Positions 37,729 to 47,244 of a DNA stretch of 62,559 nucleotides are shown piece after piece (the stretch's first letter is position 1; every line of letters begins with the position of its first letter). The position numbers and the translations under genes were made by a program. Source of the DNA: Candidatus Eremiobacterota bacterium (GTDB lineage: Bacteria; Vulcanimicrobiota; Vulcanimicrobiia; Vulcanimicrobiales; Vulcanimicrobiaceae). The notes below the pieces were generated by a model, which saw only the letters and a list, made by a program, of their open reading frames with translations, was not told the origin of the DNA and did not search any database. The stretch is taken from the NCBI GenBank assembly GCA_019235885.1, contig JAFAKB010000023.1:1-62559 (forward strand). Reading direction: 5' to 3'.

Positions 37729-39360
37729 TTACTTCCCGTTCGGCGTGAGGACCAGCTTCGACTCGGCGTAGTCGAACGTCCAGTTGAAGTGCCGCAGGAA
37801 GTCGAACCCGATCAGCCCGCCGTCGCGCCCGAACACTTTGGCCGGGCCGAAGCACGTCTCGACGTTTTGGTAGTGGTACGGTCCGACGATGATCTCGTTG
37901 AGCCGCGAGCACCGCGCCGGGATGTTGCTCGGGCCGTCGACGCCCATGAAGTTGATCTGATAGTCCGCCGTCTGTCCGCCGCCGGCGTTGAGCACGTCGT
38001 TGAGCGCGACAAGCCGGCCGCTCGTCTTCAAGTCGTCGCTGAGCACGGCGAGGAAATCGTTGCCCGTGTCGAAGATCGCGCGCGTCGTGACGTTGTTCAC
38101 CCGCAGCACGACCTCGGGCTGGCGCGTAGCGAGGTTGACGGTGAACGCATAGGCGCCCTTACCGACCGTCGGCTCCATCACGTTCGGATCGAGGATGCGA
38201 ATCGTGCGGTTCGCGGTGTCGACGTCGACGAGCGCGCCGGCCAGGAAGTCGTATCCGAGAATGCCGTCGACCGGGTTATTCTGCGGGTTCGCAGCGTCAG
38301 GTGGCAGCGCCGGCGCGACGGTGACGACGACGTTGGTGAGGCTGTTCTTGCCGAGCTCGATCGACGGCACGCGCGCGGACTGCGCGGCGACGCCGACGCC
38401 GTTCACGCCGGTGAAGCCGGTGCGGCCGAGCATCGTGAGCTTGAGCGCGTCGGCGTAGGGCCGGTACAGAATGATTCCCGACGCACCCGAGTCGAGCAGA
38501 AACCGTCCGGTGTGGCCTTGGATCGTCGCGCGGAGCTCGACCGCCTGACCGCGCGGCAGGAACGCGTACGGCGTCTGGTGCTCGACGAGGTCGATCGGAA
38601 CGGCGTCGGTCGAGACGAAGTTCCACTTCGCCGTGGGCACGGGACCGCGCAGATCGTCGTTCGTCACCTCACGCACGGCGTGCTCGGCGAGCTTCCAGGC
38701 GCCGTAGTCGCTGCTGTGGTAGCCGCTCGGGACGCGCACGCCGGGCGCGATCTCGGTGTACCCGTCGTAGTGCACGACGGAGCGGCCGTAGCCGTTGTCG
38801 GGGTCGTAGGCGACCTGCACGTACGCGCCGGTCGCGTGGTCGAACGCGATGTCGGCCGGAACGCCCGAAGCCGGCATGATGCGCACGACGTCGGCGGCGA
38901 CGCCGTCGACCGTCTGCGAGCCGCGCGCGGTCGCCGGAACGTCGGTCAGCAGATCGCCGGTGACGAGGTTTCTCGTCAAGCGGTTGCGGGCTGCGTCCTC
39001 GTACTCGACGACCGTGTAGCCGTTCTCGTTCGAAGCCCAGAAGGCGCGCCCGGTGAAGCCGTTTTCCACGCTGTTGCCTGTCAGGTCGCCGAGGCGATGG
39101 TACACGGCGCCGCGCCGGAACGTCGTCAGCGACGGCGCGGAGGACGCATCGCCGGACTGATCCTTGCTTGCGGCAGGCGTCGCGGTCGCGCGGAGGTAGC
39201 GATACGTCAGCACGAGCCCGGGCGGGTGGCCGACATACGCTTCATGCTTGGCGACGATCGCGGCGGCGTCGTTGGTGAGCGCGCCGGCGGGGAGCGGCGG
39301 AAGGGCCGCGAGCACCAAAGCAGCGGCGGACATGGTGATAGACACCTTGGCGAGAGGCAT
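37729..39360 (-). CDS. Exported retropepsin-like aspartic protease
   Basis: The 543-residue protein has a signal peptide (SITMSAAALVLAALPPLPAGA) and a ~200-residue N-terminal domain of unknown type. Two retropepsin-like domains follow: LLDSGASGIIL near residue 290 with downstream GILGYDFLAGALVDVD, and IFDTGNDFLAV near 430 with GLIGFDFLRHFNWTFDY. The paired D-[ST]-G motifs would build a pseudo-two-domain aspartic protease site in one chain. Substrates unknown. Converges with mqnC, ending one base after it. Confidence 0.85.
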   Translation of the reverse strand: MPLAKVSITMSAAALVLAALPPLPAGALTNDAAAIVAKHEAYVGHPPGLVLTYRYLRATATPAASKDQSGDASSAPSLTTFRRGAVYHRLGDLTGNSVENGFTGRAFWASNENGYTVVEYEDAARNRLTRNLVTGDLLTDVPATARGSQTVDGVAADVVRIMPASGVPADIAFDHATGAYVQVAYDPDNGYGRSVVHYDGYTEIAPGVRVPSGYHSSDYGAWKLAEHAVREVTNDDLRGPVPTAKWNFVSTDAVPIDLVEHQTPYAFLPRGQAVELRATIQGHTGRFLLDSGASGIILYRPYADALKLTMLGRTGFTGVNGVGVAAQSARVPSIELGKNSLTNVVVTVAPALPPDAANPQNNPVDGILGYDFLAGALVDVDTANRTIRILDPNVMEPTVGKGAYAFTVNLATRQPEVVLRVNNVTTRAIFDTGNDFLAVLSDDLKTSGRLVALNDVLNAGGGQTADYQINFMGVDGPSNIPARCSRLNEIIVGPYHYQNVETCFGPAKVFGRDGGLIGFDFLRHFNWTFDYAESKLVLTPNGK

Positions 39361-39437
39361 GACGGGCTTGTTCTCGCCGCACGCGCCGAACGCCCTGCCG
39401 CAAATGCGCGGTCTTTATATGATTTACCTAAAAGCGA

Positions 39438-39884
39438 TCAAGCGCCGAAACGAATTCGGTAGGTGATCAGCCGGCCGTCTGTTGCGACGCGCTCGTAGAC
39501 GCGGCGCGCCCGCGCGTTGTGCTCTTCGGCTACCCACCGCACCTCGGTCCACCCGCGCTCGCGCGCGAGCGCGCAGACGGCGTCGATGAGCATTTCGGCG
39601 AGCCCGTTGCCGCGCTGCGGTTCGTCGACCCACAAGTCGTCCAGGAAGCACGCTTCGTTGCCGTGCATCGTTCGCGGGAACGGCCGGAAGTGCGTGAACC
39701 CGGCGAGCCGGCCGGCCTCGTCGATCGCGAGCAGCCCTTCGACGCCGTGCGTGCGCGCGAGCAGCCACGACCATACGACCGCCGCGGCGGCGGCGTCGAC
39801 CGGATCGCCGAGCGCTTCACGGTAGCGCCCGAAGTGCTCGCGCCATTCCGTGTACCGCTGCGGCGAGACCGGCTCGATCTTCAT
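39438..39884 (-). CDS. GNAT-family N-acetyltransferase
   Basis: This 148-residue protein shows the GNAT core: CFLDDLWVDEPQRGNGLAEMLID (acetyl-CoA binding Q/RxxGxG/A) and a C-terminal RWVAEEHNARARRVYERVA. Substrate cannot be predicted. It is divergent from the lanthipeptide-like precursor gene whose start is 215 bases away. A tailoring role is conceivable but unsupported. Confidence 0.9.
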   Translation of the reverse strand: MKIEPVSPQRYTEWREHFGRYREALGDPVDAAAAAVVWSWLLARTHGVEGLLAIDEAGRLAGFTHFRPFPRTMHGNEACFLDDLWVDEPQRGNGLAEMLIDAVCALARERGWTEVRWVAEEHNARARRVYERVATDGRLITYRIRFGA

Positions 39885-40098
39885 GACGTCGCCACCCTAC
39901 GAGCAAACGCACGCCTTGGCCTGCACTGTCAAACGCGCGCTAGCGCGCACAACCGTGCTGCGCGAGCGGGCTCGAAGTGCAAGCGATCACAAAGGTGCGG
40001 TTCTTGCCGAAACGGGCCATGAGTTTCACGCGCGCGCGGGAAGGTGCACGGTGCGCGCGGCGCAGTGCCGCGCGCCTTTCATACGGGAGTGTACGATC

Positions 40099-40251
40099 AT
40101 GCCTACGGAACATCGTTTCGACGACCTCGACTTGCGCGAAGAGCCCTCACGGGGCCAGAGCTCGGTGTACGCACCGGCGTCCGACCGCAACACGTGCTGG
40201 ACGTTGACCCAGACCCACACGAACACATGCTCGGACGCCTGTTGCCTCTAG
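40099..40251 (+). CDS. Lanthipeptide-like (FxLD-type) RiPP precursor, 50 aa
   Basis: The ATG at 40099 has GGGAG nine bases upstream and ends at TAG 40251. The N-terminal leader MPTEHRFDDLDLREEPSRG contains FDDLDL, close to the F-x-L-D box recognised by class I lanthipeptide dehydratases and typical of actinobacterial FxLD lanthipeptides. The C-terminal core CWTLTQTHTNTCSDACC (33-49) is composed almost wholly of Thr, Ser and Cys (C33, C44, C48, C49) ready for dehydration and thioether closure. Length and layout fit a ribosomal peptide precursor. No LanB/LanC, methyltransferase or transporter is visible, so it is an orphan. A strong terminator follows. Confidence 0.75.
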   Translation: MPTEHRFDDLDLREEPSRGQSSVYAPASDRNTCWTLTQTHTNTCSDACCL

Positions 40252-40269
40252 CAGCGGGATAAATGCACG

Positions 40270-40304
40270 AACGGCCGGCGGTGCGGATCCCACCGCCGGC
40301 CGTT
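40270..40304 (+). terminator. Strong intrinsic terminator after the precursor gene
   Basis: A 14-bp perfect stem, ACGGCCGGCGGTG with one extra A at the base (40270-40283), pairs with 40291-40304 around a 7-base loop, followed by TTCGTT. It isolates the precursor gene as a monocistronic unit. Confidence 0.85.
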
Positions 40305-40581
40305 TCGTTCGGGTTCGGACGGCTCGTCGAGCGGCTCGGAACGCTCTAAGATTTCCTTTCGGCCATAACCGGTGTAGCCTCAGTAGAAGGGGTTGTTGAA
40401 CGACGCCTCGCGAGGTATATTTCCTGTGGATGTAATCCGCTCCACGAAACGTGGGCCCGTGCGAAAGCGCGGGTTTTTGTATTGGACACGGCAATATGCG
40501 AATCTGCAACACACTAGTGAGTCACATTTGCGCATAAGACCGGGAGGATAAGCGTTGCATTAGCAACTCGGACACTCTAAA
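40305..40581 (+). ncRNA. Structured non-coding stretch ending in a GNRA-loop terminator
   Basis: No gene fits here. Several inverted repeats cluster: CCTCGCGAGG (40406-40415), GTGGA with TCCAC (40426-40430/40441-40445), an alternative GGAT-gta-ATCC (40428-40438), CCACG-AAA-CGTGG (40442-40454), and CCCGTGC-GAAA-GCGCGGG followed by five T (40456-40478). The last is a clean intrinsic terminator with a GAAA tetraloop. Alternating pairings are typical of regulatory RNAs, but I recognise no known class. It is not a tRNA despite a short TAGCCTCAGTAG stretch. The composition falls noticeably in GC from here to ~41400. The remaining 100 bases lead to the membrane protein gene, with GGGAGG at about 40542-40547. 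Confidence 0.4.
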
Positions 40582-41337
40582 GTGAACGCCTACACACCTG
40601 GAGACCTCATCTCGTTCGGCATCTTCATTGCCGAGCTGGCGGTACTCTGCCTCATCGGCGGCTTGACCTTACTTGCCAGGCTTAAGCGCGTCCGTGTCGT
40701 CAATGATCCAGACAATGCCGAGAACCGCGAGAACGAAGCATGGGCTGACCGCCCAATTTTGCCGGAAGCGCTCTACGACCGTGCGTTCGAGGTGAACCGA
40801 GACATCAATTCTGAGATCCAAGGGGTAGAGAGTGGTCTTCTGGCAATATTGGCGGCCGTTGCGGCAGTGGTTGTCCTGACAATCGATAAGCTGACCGATC
40901 TAGGCGTCTTCTCGCTGAGCTGCATCGGTACTGCGTTTCTTGTCTGCGGTATCGGCTATCTCCGAGGGCGGGACGCGTGGCGCCGTAAAATTTGGGAGCC
41001 GAGCCGTTTCTTCTACGATCTCATCCTCGATCCGGACGAAACGTATCGATCAGCCGCCATCGACTTGATCAAGGCGCTCCGCGTCGCGCAAGGACTATTG
41101 AACGAAAAACGGCGATGGGCCATGATCGCCATACTCACGCTGATCATAGGAACGCTGGCAGCAGGCTGTCAGAAAGTGATACACTTTGAACGCAATGACT
41201 CATCCCGACCAGGATGCGAAACTCGAAGCTCGCCGACGTGCCGACCAAGAGGCCTACATGAAGGTGCTTCGCCGACTTGCTGCCTACCTGCGCAAGGAGT
41301 ACAACTTGACTCCTCTTCCCGCGGAGGCCGATCCTGA
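40582..41337 (+). CDS. Multi-pass membrane protein, unknown function
   Basis: From GTG 40582 the frame gives 251 residues. Helices are visible near 9-34 (ISFGIFIAELAVLCLIGGLTLL), 86-101 and 107-129 (a hairpin, VESGLLAILAAVAAVVVLTI and VFSLSCIGTAFLVCGIGYL) and 178-193 (MIAILTLIIGTLAAGC), with a charged cytoplasmic helix between. The hairpin plus loop plus last helix loosely resembles SLATT/Pycsar-type effector membrane proteins, but similarity is architectural only. The last ~50 residues overlap a second small frame and look non-native. GC is low. It sits before a nuclease gene, suggesting a defence context. Confidence 0.6.
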   Translation: MNAYTPGDLISFGIFIAELAVLCLIGGLTLLARLKRVRVVNDPDNAENRENEAWADRPILPEALYDRAFEVNRDINSEIQGVESGLLAILAAVAAVVVLTIDKLTDLGVFSLSCIGTAFLVCGIGYLRGRDAWRRKIWEPSRFFYDLILDPDETYRSAAIDLIKALRVAQGLLNEKRRWAMIAILTLIIGTLAAGCQKVIHFERNDSSRPGCETRSSPTCRPRGLHEGASPTCCLPAQGVQLDSSSRGGRS

Positions 41338-41401
41338 GACCGGCCGCCGTCGGCCTCCCCTATACTATCTGTGCGACTACTGGGGCAATCATTTCGTCTA
41401 G
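41195..41401 (+). CDS. Small hydrophilic protein overlapping the membrane protein gene
   Basis: ATG 41195 opens 68 codons: MTHPDQDAKLEARRRADQEA, a predicted amphipathic helix (MKVLRRLAAYLRKEYN), then PLYYLCDYWGNHFV. It overlaps the end of the membrane protein frame by 143 bases in another frame. Its composition is more protein-like than the overlapping membrane-protein tail, so probably one of the two reading frames is wrong or the membrane gene has lost its stop. Unknown function. Confidence 0.4.
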   Translation: MTHPDQDAKLEARRRADQEAYMKVLRRLAAYLRKEYNLTPLPAEADPETGRRRPPLYYLCDYWGNHFV

Positions 41402-41448
41402 AATTCCATTGAGAGGGACTGTGGCGGACACCGCGCAAACTCGTCGGC

Positions 41449-42567
41449 GTGCTTTCGGAAGCAGTGGTGTCCGGGTTGCAGGAGCGACTTGCTCGCGAGC
41501 ATGAGGGCACCGGCCGCATCAACAAGCGAGAGAGCAGCATCATCGATGCCGCATTGGTCGTACTCGCCGACGGTCGTCCGCGGACGTATTCGGAGATCTT
41601 CTCCGAGGCGGTAACCCACAAGATCGTCGGCGCTTCGGCGAACGAGAAGACGTGGTACAACTCGCTGCAAGGCTATATCCAACGCCGCTTCGCCGAAGGC
41701 CGGCAGGCACTGATCGTGCAGGACGTCGACCGCCGGTTTCGGCTCAATCATCCCGCCGACGACTGGCCGGCGCCGCGGCCTCCTTTGCCGGCGGCGCGGA
41801 AGATCGCGAACGCTGAGAAGCTTTCAGCTGCGCTGCACGCAACGGCTCGCGGCGTCGATCCGGCGGCTTTCGAGGTCGCGGTGTGCGACGCGTTCACGGG
41901 TCTTGGCTATGCGGCGAAGCACCTCGGCGGTCATGCGGCGCCGGACGGGTACATCGACGCCCCGCTCGGACAGTTGGGCTATCGTGCGATGCTCGAGTGC
42001 AAGACCTCGCACGATAGTGACATTCGGGGGCCGTACGCGGCGGAGGCGGCGAAGTACGTCGACGACTATGGGGCTCAGTTTTCCGCGCTGGTCGTCCCGT
42101 CGTTCGGCGGCGACGTGCTTCTCGCGCGCGAGCTGCAAACGCATCACGTCAGCGCTTGGGAGGTCCGGGACCTTACCGCGCTGCTGGAAGCGGGAAGCAA
42201 CCCGCTGGAGATGCGCCCGCTGTTCGAGGCAGGCTATGTAGAAGGCCGCATTCGGGATCTGCTTTGGGAGCGCGAGCACGGCAGGCCGAAGCGCGTCGCG
42301 GTGATCTGCGACATCCTGCTCGCAACCGCGTCCGCCGCGCAGTCCACCGCGCTCGGATCACCCAAGGACGCGCCGCTCCTCGACGAGGATGCGGCGATGC
42401 TGACCGTGGATTCGGCCCTGGTCGCGCAAGGCGCCCACATCCCTTGCACGCGAGACGACGTGCGCGCAGCATTCGCACACCTCTGCGATCCGCTCGTCGG
42501 GCTCGCAGTGCCGATCGAGAGCGGTCGCGGGATCGTCGTCTGTGCACCCCAGAGCATTACGTCTTGA
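41449..42567 (+). CDS. HARE-HTH plus PD-(D/E)XK restriction-type nuclease
   Basis: The 372-residue protein starts with a winged-helix HARE-type HTH (about 25-90: SIIDAALVVLADGRPRTYSE, LQGYIQRRF) and continues into a PD-(D/E)XK nuclease-like domain (about 130-235: FEVAVCDAFTGLGYAAKHLG, D near 166 in APDGYIDAPLG, E183/K185 in AMLECKTS). Such combinations occur in Mrr-like type IV restriction enzymes that sense modified DNA, and in other defence nucleases. The C-terminal ~130 residues are unfamiliar. The gene ends overlapping the convergent RES toxin gene by 11 bases. GTG start. Confidence 0.7.
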   Translation: MLSEAVVSGLQERLAREHEGTGRINKRESSIIDAALVVLADGRPRTYSEIFSEAVTHKIVGASANEKTWYNSLQGYIQRRFAEGRQALIVQDVDRRFRLNHPADDWPAPRPPLPAARKIANAEKLSAALHATARGVDPAAFEVAVCDAFTGLGYAAKHLGGHAAPDGYIDAPLGQLGYRAMLECKTSHDSDIRGPYAAEAAKYVDDYGAQFSALVVPSFGGDVLLARELQTHHVSAWEVRDLTALLEAGSNPLEMRPLFEAGYVEGRIRDLLWEREHGRPKRVAVICDILLATASAAQSTALGSPKDAPLLDEDAAMLTVDSALVAQGAHIPCTRDDVRAAFAHLCDPLVGLAVPIESGRGIVVCAPQSITS

Positions 42568-43093
42568 GATAGAACCAGCGCCCGAACGGCTCGCGGATCG
42601 TCTTGGTGGTTAGCGCGGTCACCTCGCGATCGAAGATGACCAGCTCTTCGCCTCGGGTTGAGGTTGCGGAGAGCACGGCTATCCCGCGCTCACCATCGGC
42701 ATAGGCCTGCTCGGCAATGGCCTGGCACGGCGGGTGCGGGATGCCTGTCGGATACGACGGCGTGAGACCGAGCGCACTTATGGCTGCCGGTGTCACCGCA
42801 TCGACCACCTCGCATTCCGCGACATCGTAATGCTGGAGATCGGGAAGTGCTTCTTCGCGTAGATCTTCGAGCTCGAGCCCAAACGCATCGTAAGCGTAGC
42901 GCCGGGCATTTCCGCGCGCGACATCCATTGAAGCATTGAGGTACAGTGCGCCGAAACCAGGCCGACCCGGTCGGTCGGGCGGATTCCAGCGGCCGCCACG
43001 CTGCCGCGAGAACGAGGTGTCGGACGGATCGGCCCAATGCCGACCGCACACGCGGTAATATCGCCCGCCGCGACGGACGTGCTGGAGTTTCAA
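42557..43093 (-). CDS. RES-domain toxin
   Basis: The 178-residue product has the RES fold marks: YYRVCGRHWADPS with the family Arg near residue 14, FSRQRGGRWNPPDRPG, GALYLNASMDVA and C-terminal RGEELVIFDRE. RES toxins deplete NAD+ or modify enzymes by ADP-ribosyl transfer and are paired with Xre/MbcA-type antitoxins. Its ATG at 43093 lies 12 bases after the antitoxin stop, in the standard antitoxin-first order on the same strand. It likely forms a type II TA with the gene below. Confidence 0.88.
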   Translation of the reverse strand: MKLQHVRRGGRYYRVCGRHWADPSDTSFSRQRGGRWNPPDRPGRPGFGALYLNASMDVARGNARRYAYDAFGLELEDLREEALPDLQHYDVAECEVVDAVTPAAISALGLTPSYPTGIPHPPCQAIAEQAYADGERGIAVLSATSTRGEELVIFDREVTALTTKTIREPFGRWFYLKT

Positions 43094-43105
43094 GCTCGGC
43101 GAACG

Positions 43106-43549
43106 CTATGCTACGTCCGGCTCTACGCCGCCGGGCACCCACGATTCTAGACGATCGAGAGCCCTCATTACGTCGCCGGGGCGACCGGCGCGAAGAACGT
43201 CTAGAACGCTTTCCCCACCCAGGCCGGGATTTGGCCGGCTGATAATCGCCGGAATCCGCTCCGGCTTGATCGTCGCGCGCAGCCGGCGCGCCACGTCCGC
43301 GATGCGGGCAACGTCAGGTACGCGTTCGGTCGGCACCCCAGCGATCATCCATTGGTTGACCGCCTGCCGGCTTACCCCGCCGAGCAACTCACCCACGGCA
43401 CGCGGAGACAGCCGGAACGTGGTGATTATCGTGATCAAGTCGCGCAGGCCGACTCGTTTGAACACGCGTTCGTGGGCGCCACGGATCCCTTGAGCTGAAA
43501 AGGTGATCGTGCGCGGCGCGACGTGCGAGCGGACCTTAACGATCGCCAT
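43106..43549 (-). CDS. Xre/MbcA/ParS-type antitoxin
   Basis: From ATG 43549 the frame gives 147 residues. An N-terminal HTH region (FRLSPRAVGELLGGVSRQAVNQWMIAG) precedes the MbcA/ParS toxin-binding domain (NPGLGGESVLDVLRAGRPGDVMRALDRLESW). It neutralises the RES toxin and represses the pair. Its start lies directly downstream of a TTGCAG-N17-TATACT promoter overlapped by two 17-bp direct repeats (see 43554-43587), so the mRNA is probably leaderless. The upstream 12 codons of the longer frame (MQFTCTCGILAP) lie inside the promoter and are rejected. Confidence 0.88.
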   Translation of the reverse strand: MAIVKVRSHVAPRTITFSAQGIRGAHERVFKRVGLRDLITIITTFRLSPRAVGELLGGVSRQAVNQWMIAGVPTERVPDVARIADVARRLRATIKPERIPAIISRPNPGLGGESVLDVLRAGRPGDVMRALDRLESWVPGGVEPDVA

Positions 43550-43553
43550 AGGT

Positions 43554-43587
43554 GCAAGTATACCGCAAGTGCAAGTAAACTGCAAGA
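43554..43587. promoter_or_regulatory. Two 17-bp direct repeats (operator) over the TA promoter
   Basis: GCAAGTATACCGCAAGT (43554-43570) and GCAAGTAAACTGCAAGA (43571-43587) match at 14 of 17 bases and together place four GCAAG boxes at 43554, 43565, 43571 and 43582. On the minus strand this overlaps a -35 TTGCAG (43585-43580) and a -10 TATACT (43562-43557) separated by 17 bases. Antitoxin binding here would block transcription, a direct autoregulation design. Confidence 0.7.
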
Positions 43588-43796
43588 GACTTGGCTCAGC
43601 GCCAGTGGTCGCCTTTTTGACTGGCTTAAGTGAGATCGCCCGGCAGAGGTTCGATCGTTCCGGTACGCTGCGATCCCCTTATCCGAGCGAGCAACCGGGC
43701 GAGCTGTTCGTCGCCGCCCTGGACAGGATAGCATAGAGCCGTAAGGACGTTTGCGATCCAAGACCTGTTGGAGAGTTGCACCTCAAACGGTTTGCG

Positions 43797-44312
43797 TCAA
43801 CGCATTGACGTGAGAACGGTGTCGCGGATCGTCCCTGCGCCGAACACTTCAATCCCGTCGATGTCGAGCAACGCGACCAACTGGGCCGGAGTCACGGCGC
43901 GATGCGGTTCGTCGAAATTCAACCACAGTGTTCCGTCGGAAATCAGCTTCGCGTCGCGGGAACGAGCTTCGCGCGATACCGCGTCATCGCGAGCACGCGC
44001 GCGCTTCCGCGAGCGAACCGCTCGGGCCGGATCAGATTTACTTCGTCAGCGATTAGCGCGTCGACACCGAGCTCGTCTTCGCTGCCGATCACGATCCTGT
44101 TCGTTGCCGCGTCGATTCGCGTCACGTAGCGCGGCCCGTCAGCCGCCGGCAACGCGCGCCGCTGGCCCACGCTGTTTCCGCCGATTCCCACGTGCTCGCC
44201 GGCGCGTTCGCGCGTGGTCGTCAGGACCGCGCCGGCCGCGCCGTTTCCGGCGCCAGGCGGGCAAGAATCTCGCGGTAATCGCCGCCCTTCCGCGAAGCAG
44301 ATGTCCTCTCGC
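43797..44312 (-). pseudogene. Decayed second copy of the mnmA 3' end
   Basis: The minus strand repeats the last ~170 codons of the intact mnmA at 46159-47244 with roughly 75-80% identity: [29 protein letters not shown] against [24 protein letters not shown], then [20 protein letters not shown] and the C-terminal ALLDIDGIEVFGAGTIRDTV. The frame is broken by at least two shifts, for instance an extra G near 44271, with stops at 43943 and elsewhere, and the 5' part is missing before about 44312. It ends with a TGA at 43797. It is clearly a pseudogene from a duplication or displaced gene end. Confidence 0.85.
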
Positions 44313-44376: not shown

Positions 44377-46154
44377 TTACGACTTGGGCGGCGGGCGGTG
44401 TCCTAGATGCCACCATCTCACCGCTGGAATCGCGCTGCGATCCGCGCGCATCTCGTCGACGAGTCGCTGCAGCTCGTCTACATGCAAGCCGTCAATCGAG
44501 GAGGCGACTGCCTGAACCACCGTTGCGATGGCTGAGGTTTCGTCGGGATCATTCTGCGTTCCATCGGTTTTCCTGGAGCAACCCGCCAAGCCGAACAACT
44601 CCCGCGAATGAACATCGGTACGGCAATGGATCCCGGTACCTCGCTGAACCCGTCCTCGAGCCGCACGGCGCTTCGGGCATCTCGTAAGGCAATGACCGCC
44701 GCATCGTTCTGGTCGATGATTTCCGGCGCTCGTTCGAAGCTGGAGCAGCGCAGTTCGTACCGGCCGTCGGCGGCGCACAGGTACAGCGCGGTCGCTGCCA
44801 CGCGCGCATCGCGCGCAAGCACTTCGATCGTGCGTTTTTCGAGCACGCGGACATCGGAAAAGAGCAGGGACTGTCGAGCAAAGGCATCGAGTGCCGCAAG
44901 CCGTTTCTTACGGTCGTGGAAGAACACGTCGTTCACGACGTTCTCGATGCGGCTGTGGATGTGTCGCAATGAAGTTCCGATGATCAACACCATGACGGCG
45001 CTCACGGCCACGCTGGCTGGCCAGCCGTTCGGGTCGACGTACTGGTCCGCGACCCATTCCACGAGCACGAAAAAGCCAAGAACGATAGCGGATACGATAC
45101 TGAACACGAGCGCGCGATTTACGACGAACCAGATATCGAGGATATGGTGTTTCAGAACGGCGTACGCGAAACCGAGCGGAACCAGGATTTGCGTCGCAGC
45201 CGACACCGTGAGCCAGACACTCTGCGTCGCGATGCCGCCGCCGACGTGCGTGACGTCCCGGAACGGAACCAGCGTGAAATCCACAAACGTGGGGCCCAAT
45301 CCGAAAATAATCGCGCCGGCTACCCACGCCAGACGCTGGCGGTCGACCCCCTCACTAGATTTATACGAAGAATAAACCGCGATGATGATCGCGACAGCGA
45401 AGAAGATGTTGGTGAGCGCGGAAAAACGCCACCAGAGCGCAAAGTAGCTTCCCAAGACCAACTGATTCAGGCTTACGAACAAGAACAGCGCGGCGATCGT
45501 CAAGCCGTACAGTGGTGCGATGCGGTAGAGCCACGCGCGTACGCCACGTGTATCCGGCTTCGGGAACAAACTCGTGAACCGCACCGCATTGACATAGGCC
45601 CACGTTTGAGCCGACCAAAAGATCGGAATGCGTGCCCAAGAGATCCGGCCTAACCAGTGGCCACCATTGGTGGAATCGCCAAGCGCAAAGAACACGAGAA
45701 ACCCGCCTAGAGCTCGCCCCGCGGGTGAGTTCCAGCGCCTGATGAGAAAGAGAAGTCCGAAGAGGACGAAGAGCAGGCGCTCGACCATGGCGAGTACGCG
45801 CGCCGGACTTCGGACATCGGCGAGTGGCGCCGCTGTCAGCGTCACCACGCGGGCCGTCTCGCGAGGACGTGACACGATAAACCGCAGCTGGTCGCCGGGC
45901 CACGGAGCTTGCGCTTCAAGGCGAGTCATCACATCGGCCGATTCGATCGAAACGACGTCACCGGGTTTTATATCGTGAGTGTCGGCGGACGATTGCGGTA
46001 CCACGGTGTTGACGCGTGTTTTATCGCCGTCGGCGGGGGCACCGTTGAACCCCCAGACACTTATGCGGTTGGGGTCGAAAACGTCGCCGAGGATGCTAAC
46101 GCCGAGGAGTCCCGTCAGCACGAGAGCTGCTATGCGAAAACCGCTTCCCGCCAT
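44377..46154 (-). pseudogene. Membrane sensor with PDZ-like and GAF domains, frameshifted near its C-terminus
   Basis: The frame from ATG 46154 gives an N-terminal helix, a PDZ-like segment (IKPGDVVSIESADVM near 70), about seven further membrane helices and a GAF-like domain up to VPMFIRG at 44601. Translation there runs out of frame, while the +1 frame continues ELFGLAGCSRKTDGTQNDPDE and VVQAVASSIDGLHVDELQRL to 44377, a normal GAF C-terminus. A single lost base in the GGG run at 44601-44603 explains this. It is thus a frameshifted gene or a sequencing error; the intact protein would be ~592 aa. No kinase domain. It starts 4 bases after mnmA. Confidence 0.75.
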
Positions 46155-46158
46155 AAGG

Positions 46159-47244
46159 TCAGGGCGACATGAGCGTTGCGCGGATCGTTGCTGCACCGAT
46201 TACTTCGAGGCCGTCGCTGTCGAACAAGGCGACCAGCTGGCCGGGCGTTACCGCACGATGGGGTTCGTCGAACGTCAGTCGCAGCGTCCCGTCGTTCGCA
46301 AGCGCCGCGCCCGCCGGCGCGAGCTTGGCGCGATACCGCGTCATCGCGAGCACCCGCGCGCGCCCGCCGGCGAAGCGTTCCGGCCGGATGAGGTTAACTT
46401 CGTCGGCGACCAGGGCGGTGACGCCCAGCTCGTCTTCGTGACCGATCACGATCGTATTCGATGCCGCGTCGATGCGCGTCACGTAGCGCGGGCTGCCGGC
46501 GGACGGCAGGCCGCGGCGCTGTCCCACCGTGTAGCCGCCGATGCCTGCGTGCGTCCCGACGAGTTCGCCGGACGTCGTCATCATGTCGCCGGGGCGCATC
46601 GTTTCCGGCGCCAAGCGGGCCAGCACCTCGCGGTAGTCGCCGCCTTCGACGAAGCAGATGTCCTGGGATTCGGTCTTCTCGGCCACGGGAATCCCGAGGC
46701 GTGCCGCGTGAGCGCGCGTCTCGGCTTTCGACAGCTGGCCGACGGGCAGCAACAGGCGGCCGAGTTGGGCCGGCGTGAGCTGAGCCAGCGCGTAGGACTG
46801 GTCTTTCGGGGAATCGCTGCGATACAGGTGCGGGCCGTCCGGGGCGTGCTCGAGGCGGGCGTAGTGGCCCGTTGCGACGTAGCGGGCGCCGAGGCGGTCG
46901 GCGTACGCGCGCAGCGTTCCGAGCTTCACGTGGTTGTTGCACGAGACGCACGGGTTCGGCGTGCGGCCTTGCGCGTAGTCGCTTGCGAAGCGCTCGATGA
47001 CGCTGCGGCGGAACGTCTCCTCGAAGTCGAGCACGTAGTGAGGAATGCCCAGCACCGCCGCGCTGCGGCGCGCGTCGTCGAAGTCGTCCGCGCCGCAGCA
47101 GGACTTGGCGTGCGCCGGCTTCGTCGGCGCGTACATCTTCATCGTCACGCCGACCACGTCGTAGCCGGCTTCCGCCAGCAGCCCTGCTGCTACCGCCGAA
47201 TCGACGCCGCCGCTCATCGCGGCGACGACGCGCGTCCGCTTCAC
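46159..47244 (-). CDS. mnmA: tRNA 2-thiouridylase MnmA
   Basis: The GTG at 47244 gives 361 residues, the usual MnmA length. Visible are the PP-loop [15 protein letters not shown] (near 10), catalytic Cys in [15 protein letters not shown] (near 92), [11 protein letters not shown], and the second Cys in [13 protein letters not shown]. MnmA transfers sulfur to U34 of tRNA-Lys, -Glu and -Gln. The start frame extends 30 codons upstream without homology, so GTG 47244 was preferred. A decayed copy of its 3' end lies at 43797-44312, the same orientation, beyond the sensor gene. Confidence 0.96.

Follow-up and report, generated by a model that had tools for sequence, protein, structure and literature searches.

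In the prochlorosin and synechococsin systems (ProcM, SyncM), one enzyme set serves many precursors that share a conserved leader, carry hypervariable cores and are in part scattered singly over the genome. These systems use a class II LanM, Nif11-type leaders and tens of precursors (PMC10783134, PMC7268733). Class I BGCs can also hold many precursors inside the cluster, as with the ten found in one Tumebacillus (PMC7268733). Nisin-type class I systems comprise LanA, LanB and LanC and have an F-x-L-D leader motif, while the FxLD lanthipeptides of Actinobacteria are associated with a methyltransferase (TIGR04364). Within the phylum Eremiobacterota, a RiPP pathway of Ca. Eudoremicrobium uses a lone lanthipeptide-synthetase-type dehydration domain and yields a phosphorylated product; this pathway shares its phylum with the locus described below, and the available part of that report (PMC9259500) describes no comparable LanB/LanC system. 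In the literature accessible to us, no account was found of class I enzymes whose precursors are scattered, an absence that is not proof.

The window precursor gene and its surroundings

The window, a 62.6-kb contig (C23) of an uncultured soil member of the phylum Eremiobacterota, carries a LanA-like precursor gene of 50 codons on its forward strand (40099 to 40251, with the ATG at 40099 and the stop at 40249 to 40251). Its 50-residue product, MPTEHRFDDLDLREEPSRGQSSVYAPASDRNTCWTLTQTHTNTCSDACCL, has seven homologues in the same genome and 11 across two further genomes from the same genus. The frame stays open upstream to 39850; the homologues begin at or near the ATG at 40099. A ribosome binding site, GGGAG (40085 to 40089, forward strand), lies 9 nt before this ATG, and a paralogue on contig C18 has the identical ACGGGAGTG ahead of its own. 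The leader contains the recognition motif FDDLDLREEP (F-x-x-L-D-L; 40117 to 40146, forward strand), which is near-invariant in 19 homologues. The last 19 residues, TCWTLTQTHTNTCSDACCL (40192 to 40248, forward strand), form the main ring-forming part of the core, whose start is approximate, and hold four Cys (C33, C44, C48 and C49) and six Thr. In the alignment, the C48 column is invariant across 19 homologues. The first-pass annotation had described a 50-codon gene with a ribosome site, a leader and a Thr/Ser/Cys core, and this description is confirmed.

Directly 3' of the gene is a GC-rich hairpin (40269 to 40305, forward strand), which had been called a strong terminator. The hairpin is indeed strong (-42 kcal/mol for a 79-base stretch, z -3.1). 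However, its tail, TTTCGTTC, is not a T run, and a terminator consensus scan did not call it. Hence, the claim of a strong terminator is only partly supported, and the hairpin is a possible terminator without a T run. A scan for sigma-70 consensus promoters found no promoter-like site at the window precursor.

The precursor gene shares a stretch of about 4.7 kb (39268 to 43974) with a GNAT gene, a RES-domain gene pair and two unknown ORFs. In G001, a genome of the same genus, the flanking genes follow the same order (mqnA, mqnE, an aspartyl protease gene, mnmA, yajQ and rimO), with 63-91% protein identity where measured. At the same site, G001 lacks the 4.7 kb and has about 520 unalignable bases instead; in addition, about 4.6 kb of different sequence separates its mqnE from the protease gene. 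The GC3 of the ORFs at 40582 to 43585 is 0.61-0.78, versus 0.90-0.94 in the neighbouring mqn, protease and rimO genes. Since these 4.7 kb are missing from G001 and their ORFs have a lower GC3, we regard them as an accessory insert. Gain of the insert in the window lineage would be the simplest reading, the other being its loss from G001. A genome search of G001 found neither a LanB nor a precursor. The viral contigs searched held no relative, so there is no sign of phage carriage.

Two further features of this region were observed. Inside the insert, a RES-domain gene (PF08808, E 1.5e-13; 42557 to 43585, reverse strand) lies with a small helix-turn-helix-like partner, and the two are probably a RES-type toxin-antitoxin pair. 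Beyond the precursor, the window, unlike G001, carries the 3' part of mnmA (tRNA 2-thiouridylase) twice, as a fragment at 43974 to 44305 and in a near-complete gene from 46331, with a 572-residue membrane- or sensor-like ORF (44478 to 46196) between them. The duplication resembles what a second insertion would leave behind.

Sister precursors and class I enzymes in the same genome

It had been noted that no LanB or LanC lies within 20 kb of the precursor. This is true, and neither is present anywhere on the 62.6-kb contig. Might the enzymes lie elsewhere in the genome? We searched the host assembly (G000; 4.5 Mb, 105 contigs, 95% complete) for both enzymes and precursors. A degenerate back-translated leader pattern, allowing up to two mismatches, matched eight sites, and the reversed control pattern matched none. 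Each of the eight sites lies at the start of a short Cys-containing ORF, and a profile search recovered the same eight precursors, a count to be read as at least eight. Homologues of the window precursor were found at E 2.7e-9 within this genome and at E 1.4e-7 in a second species. The eight share a near-identical leader, FDDLDLRE(E/Q)P, and have mostly unrelated Cys/Thr/Ser-rich cores. Six flank enzymes on contig C96, one precedes a LanC on C18 and one, in the window, is alone.

The C96 cluster lies on a single strand and consists of a LanC (L025:4222-5400), the sole LanB of the genome (L025:5397-8381; PF04738 and PF14028), a precursor (L025:8619-8768), a second LanC (L025:8834-9949) and five further precursors (L025:9974-10842). 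On C18, the precursor (L026:10025-10192) ends 10 bases before a third LanC (L026:10203-11375). The LanB is full-length (Lant_dehydr_N, E 5.7e-109; Lant_dehydr_C, E 1.1e-35). It keeps the residues aligned to NisB R83, R87, T89, R464, R784 and E823, which we take to be catalytic, as well as those aligned to R786, R826 and H961. In NisB, the latter three are needed for glutamate elimination (PMC4979651). All three precursor-associated LanCs have zinc-ligand motifs (WCY and LCHG) as well as an AHG/SHG motif, and they match PF05147 above the cut-off.

The genome encodes features that define class I: a LanB with glutamylation and elimination domains, which is on a different contig from the window precursor; a zinc LanC cyclase; and a leader that the window precursor has in common with precursors beside LanB and LanC. 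The system is like the nisin type in its full-length LanB with both domains and the aligned catalytic residues, its separate zinc LanC, its short leader with an aromatic-acidic-L-D-L motif and its Cys/Thr/Ser core. It differs from the nisin type in the F-x-x-L-D spacing, in having three LanCs with precursors, in showing no adjacent exporter or protease among the genes inspected next to the C96 cluster and, above all, in the dispersal of precursor genes away from LanB. The dispersal also sets it apart from the Tumebacillus-type class I BGCs; these likewise have many precursors per enzyme set, but here single copies lie on other contigs.

With seven sister precursors and LanB/LanC elsewhere in the genome, the window precursor is orphaned by its position but not within its genome. 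The leader, the core, the homologues and the distant enzymes support the earlier view of a lanthipeptide precursor that is an orphan by position. The homologous precursors and the LanB and LanCs also make its suggestion of an enzyme set elsewhere in the genome a probable one, and, with homologues present in related genomes, the computational part of what might have overturned that view does not hold. The proposal of a new RiPP class is needless because the enzymes are ordinary class I LanB and LanC.

The host genome contains other lanthionine synthetases. Two RamC/LanKC-like class III enzymes are encoded on C79 (L028:8578-11262) and C25 (L029:8328-11003), with no FxxLD precursors nearby; the C79 protein has RamC_N, kinase and LANC_like domains. 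Separately, a PF01636 phosphotransferase-family gene lies near a stand-alone LanC with zinc-ligand motifs (L027:8311-11458; G000:C18:72372), and neither a LanB nor a recognised precursor was found near this LanC.

The F-x-x-L-D leader in Eremiobacterota

The leader had been described as FxLD type. The family motif is instead F-x-x-[LIV]-D-[LV], one residue longer than FxLD, with the aromatic residue three positions ahead of the Leu (F-D-D-L-D), not two. The F-x-x-L-D spacing is present in all 19 family members and in eight precursor candidates next to other Eremiobacterota LanB genes. These candidates come from a screen of short ORFs rich in Cys, Thr and Ser in the surroundings of 14 other LanB loci from the phylum (168 kb), in which the regular expression F-x-x-[LIV]-D-[LV] gave eight matches at seven loci, versus none with the sequence reversed and no more than one in ten Markov controls; because the expression was picked after a first candidate set had been inspected, the eight matches are partly by construction. 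Examples of the leaders are MFEELDLKIG, MFEDIDLKIG, MFDDIDLSIG and FDAIDLKMG. The remaining seven loci, several of them at contig ends, had no candidate. When alternative spacings were compared using equally loose residue classes, F-x-L-D gave one spurious match and F-x-x-x-L-D gave none. In sister clades, FxxLD precursors lie beside LanB and LanC, and in two of these clades an ABC exporter gene is next to LanB. At one locus (G118, L084:5332-5773), LanB is preceded by two precursors whose repetitive cores are very rich in Cys (CTGCTNCSACTGCTGCSNCSGC...) and differ from the other cores observed here.

The system does resemble the FxLD lanthipeptides in its class I enzymes, acidic leader motif and TC-rich core. 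However, NCBIfam precursor models matched neither the family members (E 1) nor their phylum relatives (E 5), and no protein of the host genome scored above the curated cut-off of the FxLD methyltransferase model TIGR04364; sub-threshold matches to this model also occur in 14 of 14 control genomes. A C39 peptidase, of the kind used in double-Gly processing, was not found either. Given the spacing and the absence of precursor and methyltransferase matches, we rejected membership in the FxLD subfamily. No paper on the FxxLD motif turned up in the literature searched, which again is not proof of absence.

The leader is strongly conserved as protein. Over the 19 copies, the ten motif codons have a pS of 0.55 and a pN of 0.03 (pN/pS about 0.06), which places the leader under protein-level purifying selection.

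Dispersed copies, core divergence and candidate modification in trans

LanB was detected in 19 of 149 Eremiobacterota genomes, and the precursor family was convincing in only three, all of one genus: the host genome with eight copies, G007 with seven and G003 with four. G007 matches MAG RYN_345 and G003 matches MAG CP_BE_RX_R1_6, and a wider scan of genome contigs returned these two MAGs and no others. Weak matches in G012, G061 and G140 (E 0.006-0.009, within long frames) were regarded as chance. Of the seven G007 precursors, three lie next to LanC in a setting flanked, as on C96, by lexA and a lyase-like gene; another adjoins a LanB truncated at the contig end, and the other three are dispersed. 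All four G003 precursors are on contigs without LanB; no LanB was found anywhere in that genome, which is only 74% complete. All of these genomes are draft metagenome assemblies, and the link among C23, C18 and C96 comes from binning plus same-genus synteny for C23 (with G001) and C96 (with G007). Two dispersed G007 precursors on different contigs (L032:9224-9376 and L034:5740-5892) are near-identical and have similar upstream regions, which suggests a recent duplication of precursor plus promoter region.

While the leader is under strong purifying selection, the cores of the 19 copies vary. One core type, [WF]S[YF]QTxGCNxTxxCTNxCCPPxWDAC, is nevertheless kept in three genomes (L025:10681, L030:9660 and L037:3713), with a core pN of 0.18 versus a pS of 0.61; therefore, the cores are selected products. 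In G003, this type sits elsewhere, next to an integrase-family gene. The opposite pattern is seen between L033:4440-4592 (G007) and L035:5045-5179 (G003). Both copies occupy a conserved position between an AAA/RNase-H-like gene and znuA, and they have the leader in common, but their cores are unrelated. This looks like diversification under a fixed recognition tag.

How, then, would the lone window precursor be modified? It could be a relic, a copy of a precursor that left a cluster through duplication or horizontal transfer and is now unexpressed or unmodified. Its place in an accessory insert that has a low GC3 and is missing from G001, on a contig with no modifying enzyme and with no sigma-70-consensus site found, fits that idea. 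Yet the frame, ribosome site, leader and all four Cys are intact, as are the other dispersed copies in G007 and G003, and relics would not be expected to keep both position and leader while the core diverges, as the L033 and L035 copies do. We consider a relic unlikely. Very improbable is modification by another lanthionine synthetase of the host, whether the RamC/LanKC-like proteins of C79 and C25 or the stand-alone LanC at C18:72372. Such enzymes do exist in the genome, but none of the eight precursors is within about 10 kb of them, L027 to L029 contain no motif match, and class III leaders are described with LxLQ (PMC7268733), not FxxLD. Six of the precursors, by contrast, sit with LanB and LanC, and with no FxxLD precursors near them, the LanKC enzymes were judged unlikely modifiers. 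Least probable of all is that the product is no RiPP but a short peptide with a regulatory, metal-binding or immunity-type role. Metal binding by CxxxCC-type cores is conceivable, and the Cys could form disulfides; a leader and hypervariable core beside LanB and LanC is, however, a RiPP layout, and FxxLD tracks LanB neighbourhoods across the phylum (eight matches versus none or one in the controls).

We consider it quite likely, from gene content and leader similarity, that the window ORF encodes a class I lanthipeptide precursor belonging to a host family of at least eight and modified in trans by the LanB of C96 together with LanC. The part played by the C96 LanB is the most likely one as judged from leader identity only. 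The RRE part of this LanB would bind the F-x-x-L-D-L leader. By analogy with nisin, the enzyme would use glutamyl-tRNA to glutamylate and then dehydrate several core Thr/Ser residues, and one of the three precursor-associated LanCs would add C33, C44, C48 and C49. Up to four (methyl)lanthionine rings would be possible because TCWTLTQTHTNTCSDACCL holds four Cys and six Thr. A protease and an exporter would finish the product.

Judged by its genes, the predicted product is a class I lanthipeptide and a member of neither the FxLD nor the prochlorosin family. We rejected the latter because a Pfam search of the host leaders found no Nif11 or other leader family and because the associated enzymes are LanB and LanC (LanM was searched via PF05147). 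The precursors of this genome, eight with a short leader, nonetheless show a prochlorosin-like working mode, with one leader, variable cores and some genes scattered singly. As in the prochlorosins, many different cyclic peptides may come from one tolerant enzyme set, here of class I, and eight peptides with different ends and one enzyme set suggest a small home-made cyclic peptide library. We lean towards viewing the system as a class I counterpart of the prochlorosins, with an enzyme set acting in trans, dispersed, fast-diversifying and partly horizontally moving precursors, and an FxxLD motif characteristic of Eremiobacterota.

Precursor searches usually cover only a few genes around the enzyme (PMC7268733). 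Because they scan few genes and use FxLD-trained models, the usual searches would miss both lone copies and the FxxLD motif. Should the copies prove to be modified in trans, Eremiobacterota would offer a set of class I enzymes tolerant of very different cores, which would be of use in building cyclic peptide libraries. The same system could serve to test how the recognition domain of LanB reads a leader one residue longer than that of nisin.
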